Source: Oceanobacillus damuensis | GTDB lineage: Bacteria > Bacillota > Bacilli > Bacillales > Amphibacillaceae | NCBI RefSeq assembly: GCF_001618145.1 | Contig: NZ_KV392043.1 | Span: 127,726-191,725, forward strand | Length of the DNA: 64,000 bases | Direction of reading: 5' to 3' | In this document: one piece after another, positions 24,411 through 27,951 of the stretch | How positions within the stretch are numbered: the stretch's first letter is position 1 | How the letters are laid out: each line of letters starts with the position of its first letter | Notes under the pieces: model-generated | Databases searched by the model: none | What the model saw: only the letters and a program-made list of their open reading frames with translations | What the model was told of the DNA's origin: nothing | Program-made: the position numbers and the translations under genes

Positions 24411-24422
24411 GGAGTGTTTCAC

Positions 24423-25526
24423 TTGAAAAAAATAAGTGCGTTATTATTAGGTACACTCCTTTTTATAACAGGCTGTGTACAAGATTCAAATGAAGAAGTT
24501 CTGCAAAATGATACGACGGAGCAGGAAACGTCGATTGTTCCGAGTTATCAATTATCTGATGAAAACTACCGAATGATCCTCCCTTACAAAACAAGTCAGG
24601 CAAGGGGAGTAATTGTTAACCAGATGGCCAACCGTGTCGATATTGACGAGATGGAAGAAGGTCTCCGGAGATTGTCCAAAGAAGTATATGACCCGAACGA
24701 ATTATATTTTCAGGAAGGACAGTACTTAGATTCAAGTACAATATACTCGTGGATCGATGAGCTTAACCCGGTAGTGGAGAAGGGAGCCGATGAAGATACG
24801 TATCGGGAAAACCCTCGATATCTATCCCACATCCTTGAACAAAATTACATGAGACATAATGAAGACCAAACCGTGGAACTTGCAGGCCTGTCCCTCGGGA
24901 TTGCTATGAAATCTGTTTATCGTTTTCAGACGGAAACAGGTGGGCCATATTATTATGAAAATATATCTGAACAAGAAATGCTCTCCCAGGCAAATGAGAT
25001 TGCCCAAACGATTGTCCAGGAAATCCGCCAAATGGATGGGATGATGGAAGTACCCATTATGGTTGCCATCTACCAGGAAGAAGAACAGGCTTCTCCCGTA
25101 CCAGGGAATTTTGTCGCTAAAGCGAACGTTCCAGGCGGCAGCAGTGCCGTAGAGAATTGGCAATCTGTGAATGAAGAAAATATTCTATTCCCATCCACTG
25201 AAGGAAGAGAAAAATATTATGATGATCAGGAAATCGTTTCCAGCTTCGGAAACGAAATTGCACAATTCTTTCCTAATTACGTTGGATTGATTGGCGAAGG
25301 GTTTTACATTGATGAAGAACTCCAGAAACTTACCATTGAAATACCGATAGAATTTTATGGAAAAGCTGAGGTTCTTGGTTTTACCCAATATGCATATGGA
25401 CTCGTTCAGGAGATGTTCCCGAATTACTATGATCTTGAAATCAATGTCACTTCGAGTCAGAAGGTGGAAAGCCTGATTTACCGTAATGCAGGTGATGAGA
25501 CACCTACTGTACACATATACCATTAG
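24423..25526 (+). CDS. camS: CamS family lipoprotein (YerH)
   Basis: A 367-residue lipoprotein of the CamS sex-pheromone precursor family (YerH in B. subtilis). The signal peptide ends FITGC with lipid Cys18. In enterococci the cAM373-type peptide is cut from the end of such a signal peptide; here that part ends LLFITG, so pheromone activity is not implied. TTG 24423 is 8 nt after taaggag. Position after ligA is conserved in Bacillaceae. Confidence 0.9.
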   Translation: MKKISALLLGTLLFITGCVQDSNEEVLQNDTTEQETSIVPSYQLSDENYRMILPYKTSQARGVIVNQMANRVDIDEMEEGLRRLSKEVYDPNELYFQEGQYLDSSTIYSWIDELNPVVEKGADEDTYRENPRYLSHILEQNYMRHNEDQTVELAGLSLGIAMKSVYRFQTETGGPYYYENISEQEMLSQANEIAQTIVQEIRQMDGMMEVPIMVAIYQEEEQASPVPGNFVAKANVPGGSSAVENWQSVNEENILFPSTEGREKYYDDQEIVSSFGNEIAQFFPNYVGLIGEGFYIDEELQKLTIEIPIEFYGKAEVLGFTQYAYGLVQEMFPNYYDLEINVTSSQKVESLIYRNAGDETPTVHIYH

Positions 25527-25527
25527 A

Positions 25528-25698
25528 TTATAAGGAGCTGTTCAAAAAGGCCGGTAAAAAGGATAGATTGAATTTCGCAGGATGCTTGCTTTCTTTGTTC
25601 CTTGGAAAAGCAATACACTTTCCGAGGTGGTCGTTTGTTCACGCTAAAACAGTCAAGCAGCTTGTGATTATTATCCCCTTTTTGAACAAGCACTATAA
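25528..25698. repeat. MITE-like repeat, copy 1
   Basis: A 171-bp element with imperfect terminal inverted repeats: ttataaggagctgttcaaaa at the left against the complement of ttttgaacaagcactataa at the right. Internal text (ccggtaaaaa, gaatttcgc, gcttgctt) recurs in a second copy at 61545-61710. It has no ORF of note. It sits 2 bp after the camS stop codon. Confidence 0.8.
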
Positions 25699-25836: not shown

Positions 25837-25866
25837 GTTTTCCTATATCAGGAAAACAGGAAACTT
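25837..25866 (+). promoter_or_regulatory. Inverted repeat upstream of the NprR-like gene
   Basis: gttttcct (25837-25844) and aggaaaac (25850-25857) form a perfect inverted repeat, followed by aggaaactttttt. It can be a terminator hairpin or an operator; it lies about 70 bp before the -10 of the regulator gene. Confidence 0.45.
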
Positions 25867-25927
25867 TTTTATGACTTAAAACACGGTTAACCCCTATGAT
25901 TTTCCCAATATGAATTCTTGGAAACTA

Positions 25928-25936
25928 TGATATAAT
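25928..25936 (+). promoter_or_regulatory. Extended -10 promoter for the NprR-like gene
   Basis: TGATATAAT is a perfect extended -10 (TGN-TATAAT), 46 bp before the TTG start. No good -35 is present at 17 bp, which is common for extended -10 promoters. Confidence 0.6.
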
Positions 25937-25981
25937 GAGGTTAATTAAAATATTTCTGAATTTGATGATAGGGTGGGTATT

Positions 25982-27250
25982 TTGATAGAGATAGGGTCAT
26001 TTATAAAACTGCAGCGTACCAAACAGGAAATGACTTTAGGTGAACTTTCTGAAGGGATTGTATCTGTATCCTATTTATCAAAAATTGAAAACCAAAAAAC
26101 CCAGGCAAGCCCAGAGATCATACAATTACTGTGTAATCGCCTAGGTATTGAAGTGGACAACAATCAGGAAGAAGCTATTAAAGAGAAATGCCAGCAATGG
26201 TACAGCATGTTGTTTGAGGTTAGTGACAAAGATGAAGTTATTGCAACATATAAAGAAATCCAGGAAATGATGGATAAAAACCTTTCTGACAGCCTGATGA
26301 TGTTTGAGATTCATAAGATCAGGTATTATCTGATTCTGGGTGAATATGATGAGGCACTGAAAAAGATCAATGAGCTGAGTGAGATTTCAGGTACATTCGA
26401 TAATTTACAGCAGTATTATTGGTTTAAGTTTAGAGGGAATTATAACTCTTCTTCGGGAAATCAAAACCAAGCAATGTATTATTATAAGCTAGCTGAAGAA
26501 AGAATTAGCAGACTAGAGATAGAAGAAAATGAAATTGCCGATCTTCAATACATTATAGCAATCACTCAAAGTAAATTGAGAAATACATTAGAAGCTATAG
26601 ATTATGCTAATAAGTCTTTAAATATATTCATGAAACAATATAACTTTATTCGATGTGCACAGTGTCATAACGTTCTGGGAATTTCCTATAGAAGAATAAA
26701 GTTATATGATAAAGCAATCAAAAACTTTAACTTGGCACTCCATCTTGGAAAACTTGACAAAAATAAACAGTTAATTCAGCTTACCAACCAAAATCTAGGC
26801 TATCTATATTCAACAAAGGGAGATTCTGTTGAAGCAATTAAGCATTATAAAGAAATAATATTTGATTGTGAAGTTGATATTGTTGAAAGATTAGCTTCAG
26901 TATCTTCATTGGTAAGGGAATACTATAATATTAAAAATTACCAAGAGGCACGAAATAGTATCAAATATGGATTAAAATTGATTGAGGAAGTTCAAGATAT
27001 GGAGCCTTATAAAATTTTTTATTATGTAATTTACACATACAATTATTTACTTAGCGAAAAATTTGACAAGTTTGAAACTCTAGTAGCCAAGGAATTTATC
27101 CCTTACCTAAAACTTCATAAGGATTATGCCAGCATAGTGATTTATGCAGAATTATTAGCTAAACATTATGAGAAGCTATTCAAATATAAGGATGCAGCGA
27201 AATATTACAAAGAGGCTAACTTTGCCTATGAGCAAATTTCTAATATTTAA
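25982..27250 (+). CDS. RRNPP quorum-sensing regulator, NprR-like
   Basis: A cytoplasmic peptide-responsive transcription regulator of about 422 residues. Residues 5-58 form an XRE-type helix-turn-helix (MTLGELSEGIVSVSYLSKIE). The remainder is a series of helical TPR hairpins (for example LGEYDEALKKINEL, LRNTLEAIDYANKSL, KLYDKAIKNFNLALHL, YKDAAKYYKEANFAYE). Length is close to NprR (about 423 aa) and well above PlcR (about 285). A secreted pro-peptide gene follows 25 nt downstream, the diagnostic arrangement for RRNPP systems. TTG 25982 is favoured by SD ataggg; GTG 25973 is also in frame. AT content rises in its second half, which may indicate transfer. Confidence 0.85.
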   Translation: MIEIGSFIKLQRTKQEMTLGELSEGIVSVSYLSKIENQKTQASPEIIQLLCNRLGIEVDNNQEEAIKEKCQQWYSMLFEVSDKDEVIATYKEIQEMMDKNLSDSLMMFEIHKIRYYLILGEYDEALKKINELSEISGTFDNLQQYYWFKFRGNYNSSSGNQNQAMYYYKLAEERISRLEIEENEIADLQYIIAITQSKLRNTLEAIDYANKSLNIFMKQYNFIRCAQCHNVLGISYRRIKLYDKAIKNFNLALHLGKLDKNKQLIQLTNQNLGYLYSTKGDSVEAIKHYKEIIFDCEVDIVERLASVSSLVREYYNIKNYQEARNSIKYGLKLIEEVQDMEPYKIFYYVIYTYNYLLSEKFDKFETLVAKEFIPYLKLHKDYASIVIYAELLAKHYEKLFKYKDAAKYYKEANFAYEQISNI

Positions 27251-27275
27251 TTTCACTTGGAAAGGGGGGAGTAAA

Positions 27276-27419
27276 ATGAAGAAGCTATTAGCAGGACTAT
27301 CATTAGTTGCTCTATTGGTTGGTGGATTTGCATTCGTACAGGATAATAATGCAACAGATTTAACAATGGATAGAGAACCAACTATCTACGGAACAAGCAG
27401 TACTACTGTACAATTCTAA
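27276..27419 (+). CDS. NprX/PapR-like secreted signalling pro-peptide
   Basis: A 47-residue exported pro-peptide. MKKLL plus a hydrophobic core (residues 4-21) forms a Sec signal, followed by a polar C-terminal part. Residues 33-39, REPTIYG, share the x-x-P-x-I-x-G pattern of the NprX heptapeptide SKPDIVG of the Bacillus cereus group. The extreme C-terminus SSTTVQF is an alternative mature peptide, PapR-style. SD aaaggggggag sits 5 nt before the ATG, and a terminator follows. Expected life cycle: export, extracellular trimming, re-import by an oligopeptide permease and binding to the TPR regulator upstream. The pairing is inferred from gene order. Confidence 0.8.
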   Translation: MKKLLAGLSLVALLVGGFAFVQDNNATDLTMDREPTIYGTSSTTVQF

Positions 27420-27479
27420 TCAGTAATAATCAGTTTTTAATCAATTTGTTTTTTACCCTATTACTATATGATGGATTGA

Positions 27480-27517
27480 CCTGAAACGGCGTGGAACCTG
27501 TTTCAGGTATTTTTTTG
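27480..27517 (+). terminator. Terminator after the pro-peptide gene
   Basis: cctgaaac (27480-27487) pairs with gtttcagg (27500-27507), followed by tattttttt. Confidence 0.9.
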
Positions 27518-27846: not shown

Positions 27847-27951
27847 ATGGAATATGCAATTAGGGGAGTAACTTGGTTTTGGTTATTTGTACCAATGCCG
27901 ATCGTATTATTATTATCCATCATTACATTGTTTACAGAGAGGAGAAAATAA
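27847..27951 (+). CDS. 34-aa membrane peptide, probable symporter accessory subunit
   Basis: A 34-residue peptide with one hydrophobic helix (about residues 9-28, WFWLFVPMPIVLLLSIITLF) and a basic end (ERRK). SD gggaggtagaaagg precedes the ATG. It ends 3 nt before the sodium/proline symporter start. Small single-span proteins coded directly before sodium/solute symporters are known as accessory subunits; the role here is inferred from position. Confidence 0.65.
   Translation: MEYAIRGVTWFWLFVPMPIVLLLSIITLFTERRK

Follow-up and report, generated by a model that had tools for sequence, protein, structure and literature searches.

The cassette between camS and putP

The window, that is, the whole 64,000-nucleotide stretch of Oceanobacillus damuensis DNA analysed here, carries between camS and putP a receptor gene that is followed, after a gap of 25 nt, by a gene for a short propeptide. 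The features of the locus, with their positions in the window, are as follows.

25838..25856, no strand assigned: box 1, a perfect palindrome TTTTCCT-N5-AGGAAAA and predicted operator; the only match without mismatch in the window
25900..25914, forward strand: box 2, TTTTCCCAATATGAA, over the -35 region, a predicted operator or activator site; the only exact 15-mer in the organism's own genome
25928..25936, forward strand: extended -10 promoter element TGATATAAT, read from the sequence and aligning in relatives
25970..25977, forward strand: receptor ribosome-binding site (RBS) AGGGTGGG, conserved across 18 aligned upstream regions, four of which show small changes
25982..27250, forward strand: receptor gene, TTG start, 422 aa, XRE HTH and TPR repeats, NprR type
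27260..27269, forward strand: RBS of the peptide gene, GAAAGGGGGG, read from the sequence
27276..27419, forward strand: propeptide gene, 47 aa, MKKLLAGLSLVALLVGGFAFVQDNNATDLTMDREPTIYGTSSTTVQF, Sec-type N-terminus
27369..27392, forward strand: coding positions for propeptide residues 32-39, DREPTIYG, the predicted pheromone core, which lines up with the family core [DE]xEPSI[FL]S
27479..27508, forward strand: intrinsic terminator-like hairpin with a T run, from a hairpin scan

We took the TTG at 25982 as the receptor start because an alternative in-frame GTG at 25973 falls within the conserved RBS and because the starts of relatives, which use the equivalent TTG or ATG, align with it. Pfam searches identified HTH_3 (E 2.8e-9, residues 8-59) and TPR_2 (E 6.7e-12) in the receptor, CamS upstream of it and an SSF symporter (PutP) downstream, and the N-terminus of the propeptide gave weak matches to the PhrK and Phr_nterm models, both under the model cut-offs. 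The anatomy proposed in the first-pass annotation (extended -10, receptor of 422 aa, gap of 25 nt, 47-aa Sec peptide, terminator) was borne out by sequence reading and domain matches, and its placing of REPTIYG at propeptide residues 33-39 was correct. Terminator-like sites numbered three in 2.5 kb versus 1.0 +/- 1.1 in shuffled sequence, Rfam gave no match between 24300 and 30200, and the receptor is single copy in its own genome at E<=0.001. As to the neighbours, camS (24414-25526), beside which the RRNPP receptor stays family-wide, bears the Pfam name sex pheromone cAM373 precursor, and a 34-aa membrane-type ORF at 27847-27951 (MEYAIRGVTWFWLFVPMPIVLLLSIITLFTERRK), immediately 5' of putP, had no NCBIfam match and is kept in the congener G172 (L299).

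When the receptor was compared as a single sequence with known structures, Rap105, Rap3T, RapJ/F and NprR matched at similar strength, Rap105 standing first, above NprR. With a profile of 27 family sequences the best match was NprR (4GPK, 6.1e-40), ahead of Rap105 (1.6e-33) and PlcR (3.2e-5), the PlcR match being confined to positions 3-124. Members of the NprR subfamily have a Rap-like 3-helix-bundle region and then about nine TPRs; NprR 4GPK aligned over profile positions 62-412, and the tryptophan of the 3-helix-bundle fold, Trp79, is kept in 94/94 syntenic rows, a table in which one genome is present twice (L031 duplicates L040; L031 was left out of all other counts). Identity to NprR is 20.6% over 344 aligned residues, or 24.7% over 361 by BLASTP, and an identity of at least 30% over 80% to the reference NprR was not reached; this threshold is the known-cluster rule of RRNPP_Detector, which is cluster-based as published and was applied here pairwise. 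NprR is described as an HTH, a 3-helix bundle and a TPR domain, in a subfamily found in 21 genera including Virgibacillus (PMC9765709). Because the profile preference, the HTH and the conserved tryptophan go together with only 20.6% identity, the pair reads as an RRNPP system of NprR type but a divergent one. This agrees with the earlier proposal of an RRNPP pair resembling NprR, since the profile comparison among NprR, PlcR and Rap puts NprR first.

The known systems differ in how much they share with the pair. NprR-NprX of the B. thuringiensis / B. cereus group, with the pheromone SSKPDIVG, has the same XRE HTH, 3-helix-bundle tryptophan and TPR array, a propeptide gene just downstream and a pheromone with a central proline, but a different chromosomal place. 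The Rap-Phr systems (Rap105, Rap3T, RapF/H/J) share the TPR fold and a Phr propeptide downstream, whereas Rap proteins are without the HTH that the window receptor has, score lower against the profile and use a different pheromone code. PlcR-PapR likewise combines an HTH-TPR receptor with a secreted heptapeptide partner, but its profile match is only partial (E 3e-5) and its pheromone is C-terminal; PlcR is moreover described as having no 3-helix bundle (PMC9765709). An NprR-type system on a plasmid of Priestia koreensis FS-1 (L081) has a receptor 33.5% identical to that of the window and a peptide gene 13 nt downstream with the core EKEPGPLK, but it is plasmid-borne and not beside camS, and neither box was found within 2 mismatches in the 260 nt upstream of it. 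RRNPP_Detector is reported to find two NprR-NprX systems in this strain (PMC10075063), which may or may not include L081. In a phage collection six records matched the receptor, all of them Rap-type by annotation or match length and none covering 80%. A second receptor class occurs in the same family (L155, L157, L158, L160, L162-L164, L184), about a third identical to the window receptor where measured, with peptides of EEP-, KEP- or EHPDP-type.

The residues that NprR uses for its several contacts are unevenly kept. Equivalents of the tetramer residues are conserved (Y223 in 94/94 and F225 in 90/94 syntenic rows, and also that of Y410), and the peptide-contact residues R126, N306, D309 and R343 are not kept. 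Among the four Spo0F-contact residues only Y223 remains; D107, Y118 and E188 align with S102, K112 and I185, Y118 with K112 firmly and the other two with an uncertainty of one residue from nearby indels. With the Spo0F contacts for the most part unmatched, NprR's part in the phosphorelay should not be taken for granted here. The closeness to Rap proteins suggests another explanation, by which the receptor would mainly bind Spo0F or another response regulator and be released by the peptide, the upstream boxes belonging to another regulator. Consistent with it, Rap proteins are close matches, B. thuringiensis NprR is reported to have this second activity (PMC4970707) and the equivalents of W79 and Y223 are conserved; however, the HTH is intact and highly conserved, three of the four Spo0F contacts differ, and the box pair described below is found again at 11 of the 33 receptor loci that do not lie beside camS, every one of these 11 belonging to the genus g34. 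We regard the Rap-like explanation as quite improbable and retain the NprR-type reading. The genome encodes ten SBP_bac_5 oligopeptide-binding proteins that pass the cut-off, together with one Spo0A, so that the uptake and sporulation components required by a system of this kind are present in outline.

A fixed locus of the family

We searched for the receptor in 39 genomes, of which 29 matched at 1e-20, and in 147 genomes of the family, of which 110 matched at 1e-30, the organism's own genome being in both sets, and retrieved 119 regions for comparison of gene order. The order camS-receptor-(putP)-gatC-gatA was found, as far as the regions reached, in 93 distinct genomes from 25 genera, all of one family, with putP seen in 44/93. 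A Sec-type peptide ORF lies downstream of the receptor in 83 of these 93 loci, 82 recognised by our filter with a gap of 6-29 nt and one (L168), which the filter missed, added by eye; a false match of the filter at L046 was counted as peptide-less. Because signal-peptide ORFs follow 83 of 93 syntenic receptor genes, the pairing is more than chance; its absence in relatives had been named beforehand as the observation that would speak against the pair. The first-pass annotation had also taken the cassette to interrupt a conserved order between camS and putP, and this view has to be given up, the site being fixed family-wide with the receptor there in 93 genomes.

Distances between receptors correlate with those between CamS proteins (Mantel r 0.64, n=93, 0/999 permutations as high), which, CamS being the neighbour gene, is also compatible with transfer of the block. 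Moreover, 20 genomes were chosen for having no orthologue or distant relatives only, and 19 of them have camS: a receptor was found within 1.5 kb after camS in 0/19, putP or gatC stands there in 13, and neither was found in six. Two congeners are among the 13, and in the congener G172 (CamS 84% identical) boxes, receptor and peptide are cleanly absent and the region before putP is kept. A receptor search of the genome contigs returned one relative only. Taken together, the distribution and the receptor-less camS genomes point to an old locus with loss in places and not to a local insertion. On this comparative sequence evidence we consider the cassette a largely vertically inherited, fixed chromosomal locus of the family. 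Among the best matches of a literature search, largely of open-access articles and with preprints little covered, we found no description of a locus at the camS site. The genus g34 carries up to five receptor copies per genome, most of those retrieved lying away from camS (L122, L124, L127, L128, L132-L138, L152-L154), many with their own peptides and two side by side in L122.

The pheromone core and the residue that reads it

The C-terminal part of the propeptide contains a family core block, [DE]xEPSI[FL]S, whose version in the window is DREPTIYG. The residue before the core proline is E in 64, H in 10 and another residue in nine of the 83 syntenic peptides, and position P+2 is I or V in 72/74 scored syntenic cores, a position that the core-placing score favours. 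That score favours E/H before P, I/V/L at +2, S/G/N at +4 and D/E/G at -3, and because the core was chosen by it, low entropies at exactly these positions are partly built in. A MAFFT alignment of the propeptides made without the score gave the proline as the only invariant column and a consensus containing ExEPSI. The core block is conserved and the flanks on both sides of it vary, the tail positions +5 to +11 being among the most variable (2.5-3.4 bits in an entropy table of 63/74 peptides, those longer than 55 aa left out), and core position -2 is variable too (3.17 bits). The string EPTIY is unique to the window propeptide among the propeptides compared. When aligned with NprX, SSKPDIVG and DREPTIYG have P, I and G in common, and DREPTIYG agrees with the pattern xxxPxIxG.

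Propeptides with tandem copies repeat the core block and not the tail, with ten copies in L034 and three to seven in 12 other syntenic loci. These loci (L034, L109, L114-L119, L121, L123, L144, L148, L178) stand among single-copy relatives; the eight matches counted by pattern in L178 include one that lies in the tail, and at least three copies are present in L168. Tandem propeptides of NprX type have been described before, with as many as six copies (PMC9765709), and some Rap-Phr systems are reported to have tandem Phr copies (PMC11343458). Since the final copies in L114, L144 and L148 end at P+3, the mature pheromone likely ends at P+3 or P+4. The first-pass annotation had preferred REPTIYG and had named the C-terminal SSTTVQF as the alternative, which would make the pheromone PapR-like. 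The last residue of the propeptide, encoded in the window at 27414-27416, is F, Y or L in 71/82, and the residues before it vary; this recurrent ending is what the PapR-like alternative has in its favour. Against it stand the variable tail, the tandem propeptides that repeat the EPSI block up to copies ending at P+3, and the covariation set out below, in which one receptor column ranks first only for the position before the proline. We hold the C-terminal alternative to be very improbable, and the block conservation, the tandem repeats and the covariation argue for DREPTIYG as the core and SSTTVQF as a variable tail.

A comparison of peptide with receptor alleles had been suggested earlier. 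We scanned 399 receptor columns across 85 loci (74 syntenic), peptides without E or H before the proline being left out, and found that E and H were best separated by receptor residue 198 (rank 1/399), which aligns with NprR H201. An EP pheromone goes with K198 in 72/74 and an HP pheromone goes without it in 8/11, the exceptions being HP with K198 in L034, L097 and L180 and two of 74 EP without K198. The fourth-ranking column, residue 161, aligns with NprR W167, and in NprR both H201 and W167 are reported to stack on the lysine before the proline of NprX (PMC4970707); the pocket pair is thus K/H201 in NprX/NprR versus E/K198 here. The window itself combines K198 with E34 and has an unusual Q at residue 161. 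E and H changed eight times on the receptor tree by parsimony, and a test of dependent evolution gave LR 25.1 with 4 df, the highest of six columns tested. Column 198 ranked first for the position before the proline and eighth or worse at all other tested positions (-8 to +11). Peptide positions +1 and +4 reached 4e-12 and 2e-8 with columns outside the reported contacts; as raw p-values are inflated by relatedness, the weight lies on which column ranks first and not on the p-value. The columns of NprR D309 and N306 rank second for peptide positions -2 and -4, but since D309 ranks second for +5 too, we did not lean on them. The covariation points to the peptide residue before the proline as the part read by the receptor. 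That the peptide might be an ordinary small secreted or antimicrobial peptide and not a signal seems barely credible to us, given its position, its length, the tandem copies and the covariation with a pocket residue known from NprR.

Ten syntenic receptors have no recognised peptide gene (L045-L050, L141, L147, L150, L151). The six congeners among them (L045-L050) gave dN/dS of 0.07-0.115 in 15 pairs, compared with 0.02-0.11 in five pairs of paired receptors, and these six receptors are under purifying selection. Residue 198 is K or R in the six congeners, K in three of the other four and N in L150. A profile search (A3, from an alignment of 68/69 peptides with L146 left out) of 14 genomes recovered the known peptide genes (4e-19 to 3e-5) in the four genomes that carry one. 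The best A3 matches in the ten orphan genomes had values of 6e-4 to 0.2, and no second pheromone gene was recognised, in a search whose sensitivity is limited for tandem or divergent peptides. The seven matches inspected, in G002, G007, G014, G018 and G019, proved to be longer proteins that begin like a signal peptide or a short ORF lacking the core; NEPTTF occurs in one of them (L189) but in none of its relatives L191, L193, L194 and L207. It is possible that the orphan receptors listen to E-type pheromones of others.

Paired upstream boxes and the proposed switch

Two DNA boxes stand upstream of the receptor gene, box 1 in the family forms TTTTCCT-N5-AGGAAAA or TTTCCT-N6-AGGAAA and box 2 as TTTTCCCAATATG at the -35 position. 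Box 1 (TTTCCT-N5/6-AGGAAA, <=2 mismatches) is present in 71/83 peptide-bearing syntenic loci. The 13-mer of box 2 is present at <=1 mismatch in 69/83 peptide-bearing versus 0/10 peptide-less syntenic loci (Fisher 2e-7, the ten peptide-less loci coming from only three genera), and at <=2 mismatches in 79/83 and 5/10, respectively; at the ten syntenic loci without a peptide gene the boxes are decayed. The start of box 2 lies 31-32 nt from the -10 in 92/93 loci with a measurable -10, paralogues included. When both boxes were placed freely over 260 nt upstream at <=2 mismatches, 84 loci had the pair, and in 80 of them the box centres are either 58-59.5 nt (59 loci) or 68-69 nt (21 loci) apart, with none between; the other four are three peptide-less loci and one distant paralogue. 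The half-site starts are 61-63 or 71-72 nt apart, which is about six or seven helical turns, but because the tree of receptors shows just two changes of spacing class, this argument from phasing rests on few events. Two of the 11 loci away from camS that have the box pair, the second receptor of L122 and L138, are without a recognised peptide gene. The boxes therefore go with the receptor gene, the link to the peptide being strong only at the camS site.

We considered whether box 1 is simply the terminator of camS and box 2 a mere promoter element, so that there would be no autoregulation. The RNA of box 1 can form an 8-bp hairpin with a T-rich sequence some bases later, and box 2 does occupy the -35 position. 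The hairpin, however, is no better than that of shuffled sequences (z -1.03), camS has a closer terminator-like site behind it at 25577-25589, the T run is missing in some relatives (for example L038, L039 and L041), and the boxes keep to one of two narrowly defined distances that differ by 10 nt, including at paralogues that are not next to camS. We consider the terminator explanation unlikely and favour operators, in line with the report that peptide-bound NprR forms a tetramer and with the structure-based suggestion that this tetramer contacts two DNA sites (PMC4970707). Such a tetramer fits two spaced boxes, and the pair predicts autoregulation through a bridging tetramer; the place of box 2 instead of a -35 element hints at activation.

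A search for a regulon by matching the boxes gave no target that we accepted beyond the receptor's own promoter. Exact TTTCCT-N5/6-AGGAAA occurred one to five times per genome in 21 genomes, 61 times in all on one strand versus 90 for the reversed control, and twice in the own genome versus three control sites, the second site lying inside coding sequence. Box 1 with A/T flanks and one mismatch, flanks that exclude the window's own box, gave 13 sites versus nine. The 15-mer of box 2 at <=2 mismatches gave 44 sites on both strands of the own genome versus 17 in the control, comprising the receptor's own exact site, one site with one mismatch in a coding sequence that we take to be glutamate synthase-like, and 42 with two mismatches; inspection covered the first two of these groups. 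In 70 family genomes the exact 13-mer of box 2 occurred at 45 places, spread over 32 genomes; known receptor genes lie downstream of 15 of these sites, and the remaining 30 compare with 28 for the reversed control. A Sigma-H promoter in the 3' end of the receptor gene, found loosely in 21/93 loci (12 strictly) versus 14.7 +/- 3.3 loosely in codon shuffles, was too weak a signal to be claimed.

The mechanism that we infer, from export to the direction of regulation, runs as follows. The 47-aa propeptide would be exported, trimmed to a peptide of seven or eight residues with DREPTIYG at its centre and taken back up by an oligopeptide permease; the pheromone would then bind the TPR groove of the receptor, with E34, the residue before the proline, sitting on K198 as the NprX lysine does on NprR H201. 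Binding would yield a DNA-binding receptor tetramer that holds the two in-phase boxes 5' of its own extended -10 and controls its own operon, probably by positive feedback. Overall, we consider it quite likely that the locus is a largely vertical NprR-type quorum-sensing pair with a DREPTIYG-centred pheromone and a tetramer that acts on two boxes to control its own operon. More tentatively, and with considerable doubt, the boxes may be the footprint of an NprR-type tetramer bridging its own operators, an ancestral self-amplifying switch with a readable specificity pair, on which the peptide-less congeners, with their basic residue 198 and purifying selection, would eavesdrop through the E-type pheromones of neighbours.

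The first-pass annotation thus holds for the gene pair, but it had overlooked the paired upstream boxes, the orphan receptors, the tandem-copy propeptides and the covariation of receptor and pheromone. New here are the two conserved upstream DNA boxes of an NprR-type locus. They amount to a predicted pair of operators in a class of receptors for which DNA binding at two sites has been suggested on structural grounds (PMC4970707). The B. thuringiensis nprR-nprX genes are reported not to be autoregulated but under CodY and PlcR, plcR being described as autoregulated (PMC4147580); unlike them, the window operon has two predicted operators of its own, and autoregulation, if true, would be a real difference. 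RRNPP systems are reported mostly from Bacillus and streptococci (PMC9765709), and the family that contains Oceanobacillus now offers, at one fixed chromosomal locus, 83 natural pheromone-receptor pairs among the genomes compared, ten peptide-less receptors and one clean absence in a congener. These natural pairs make pheromone specificity, the multiplication of propeptide copies and eavesdropping by receptors directly testable.
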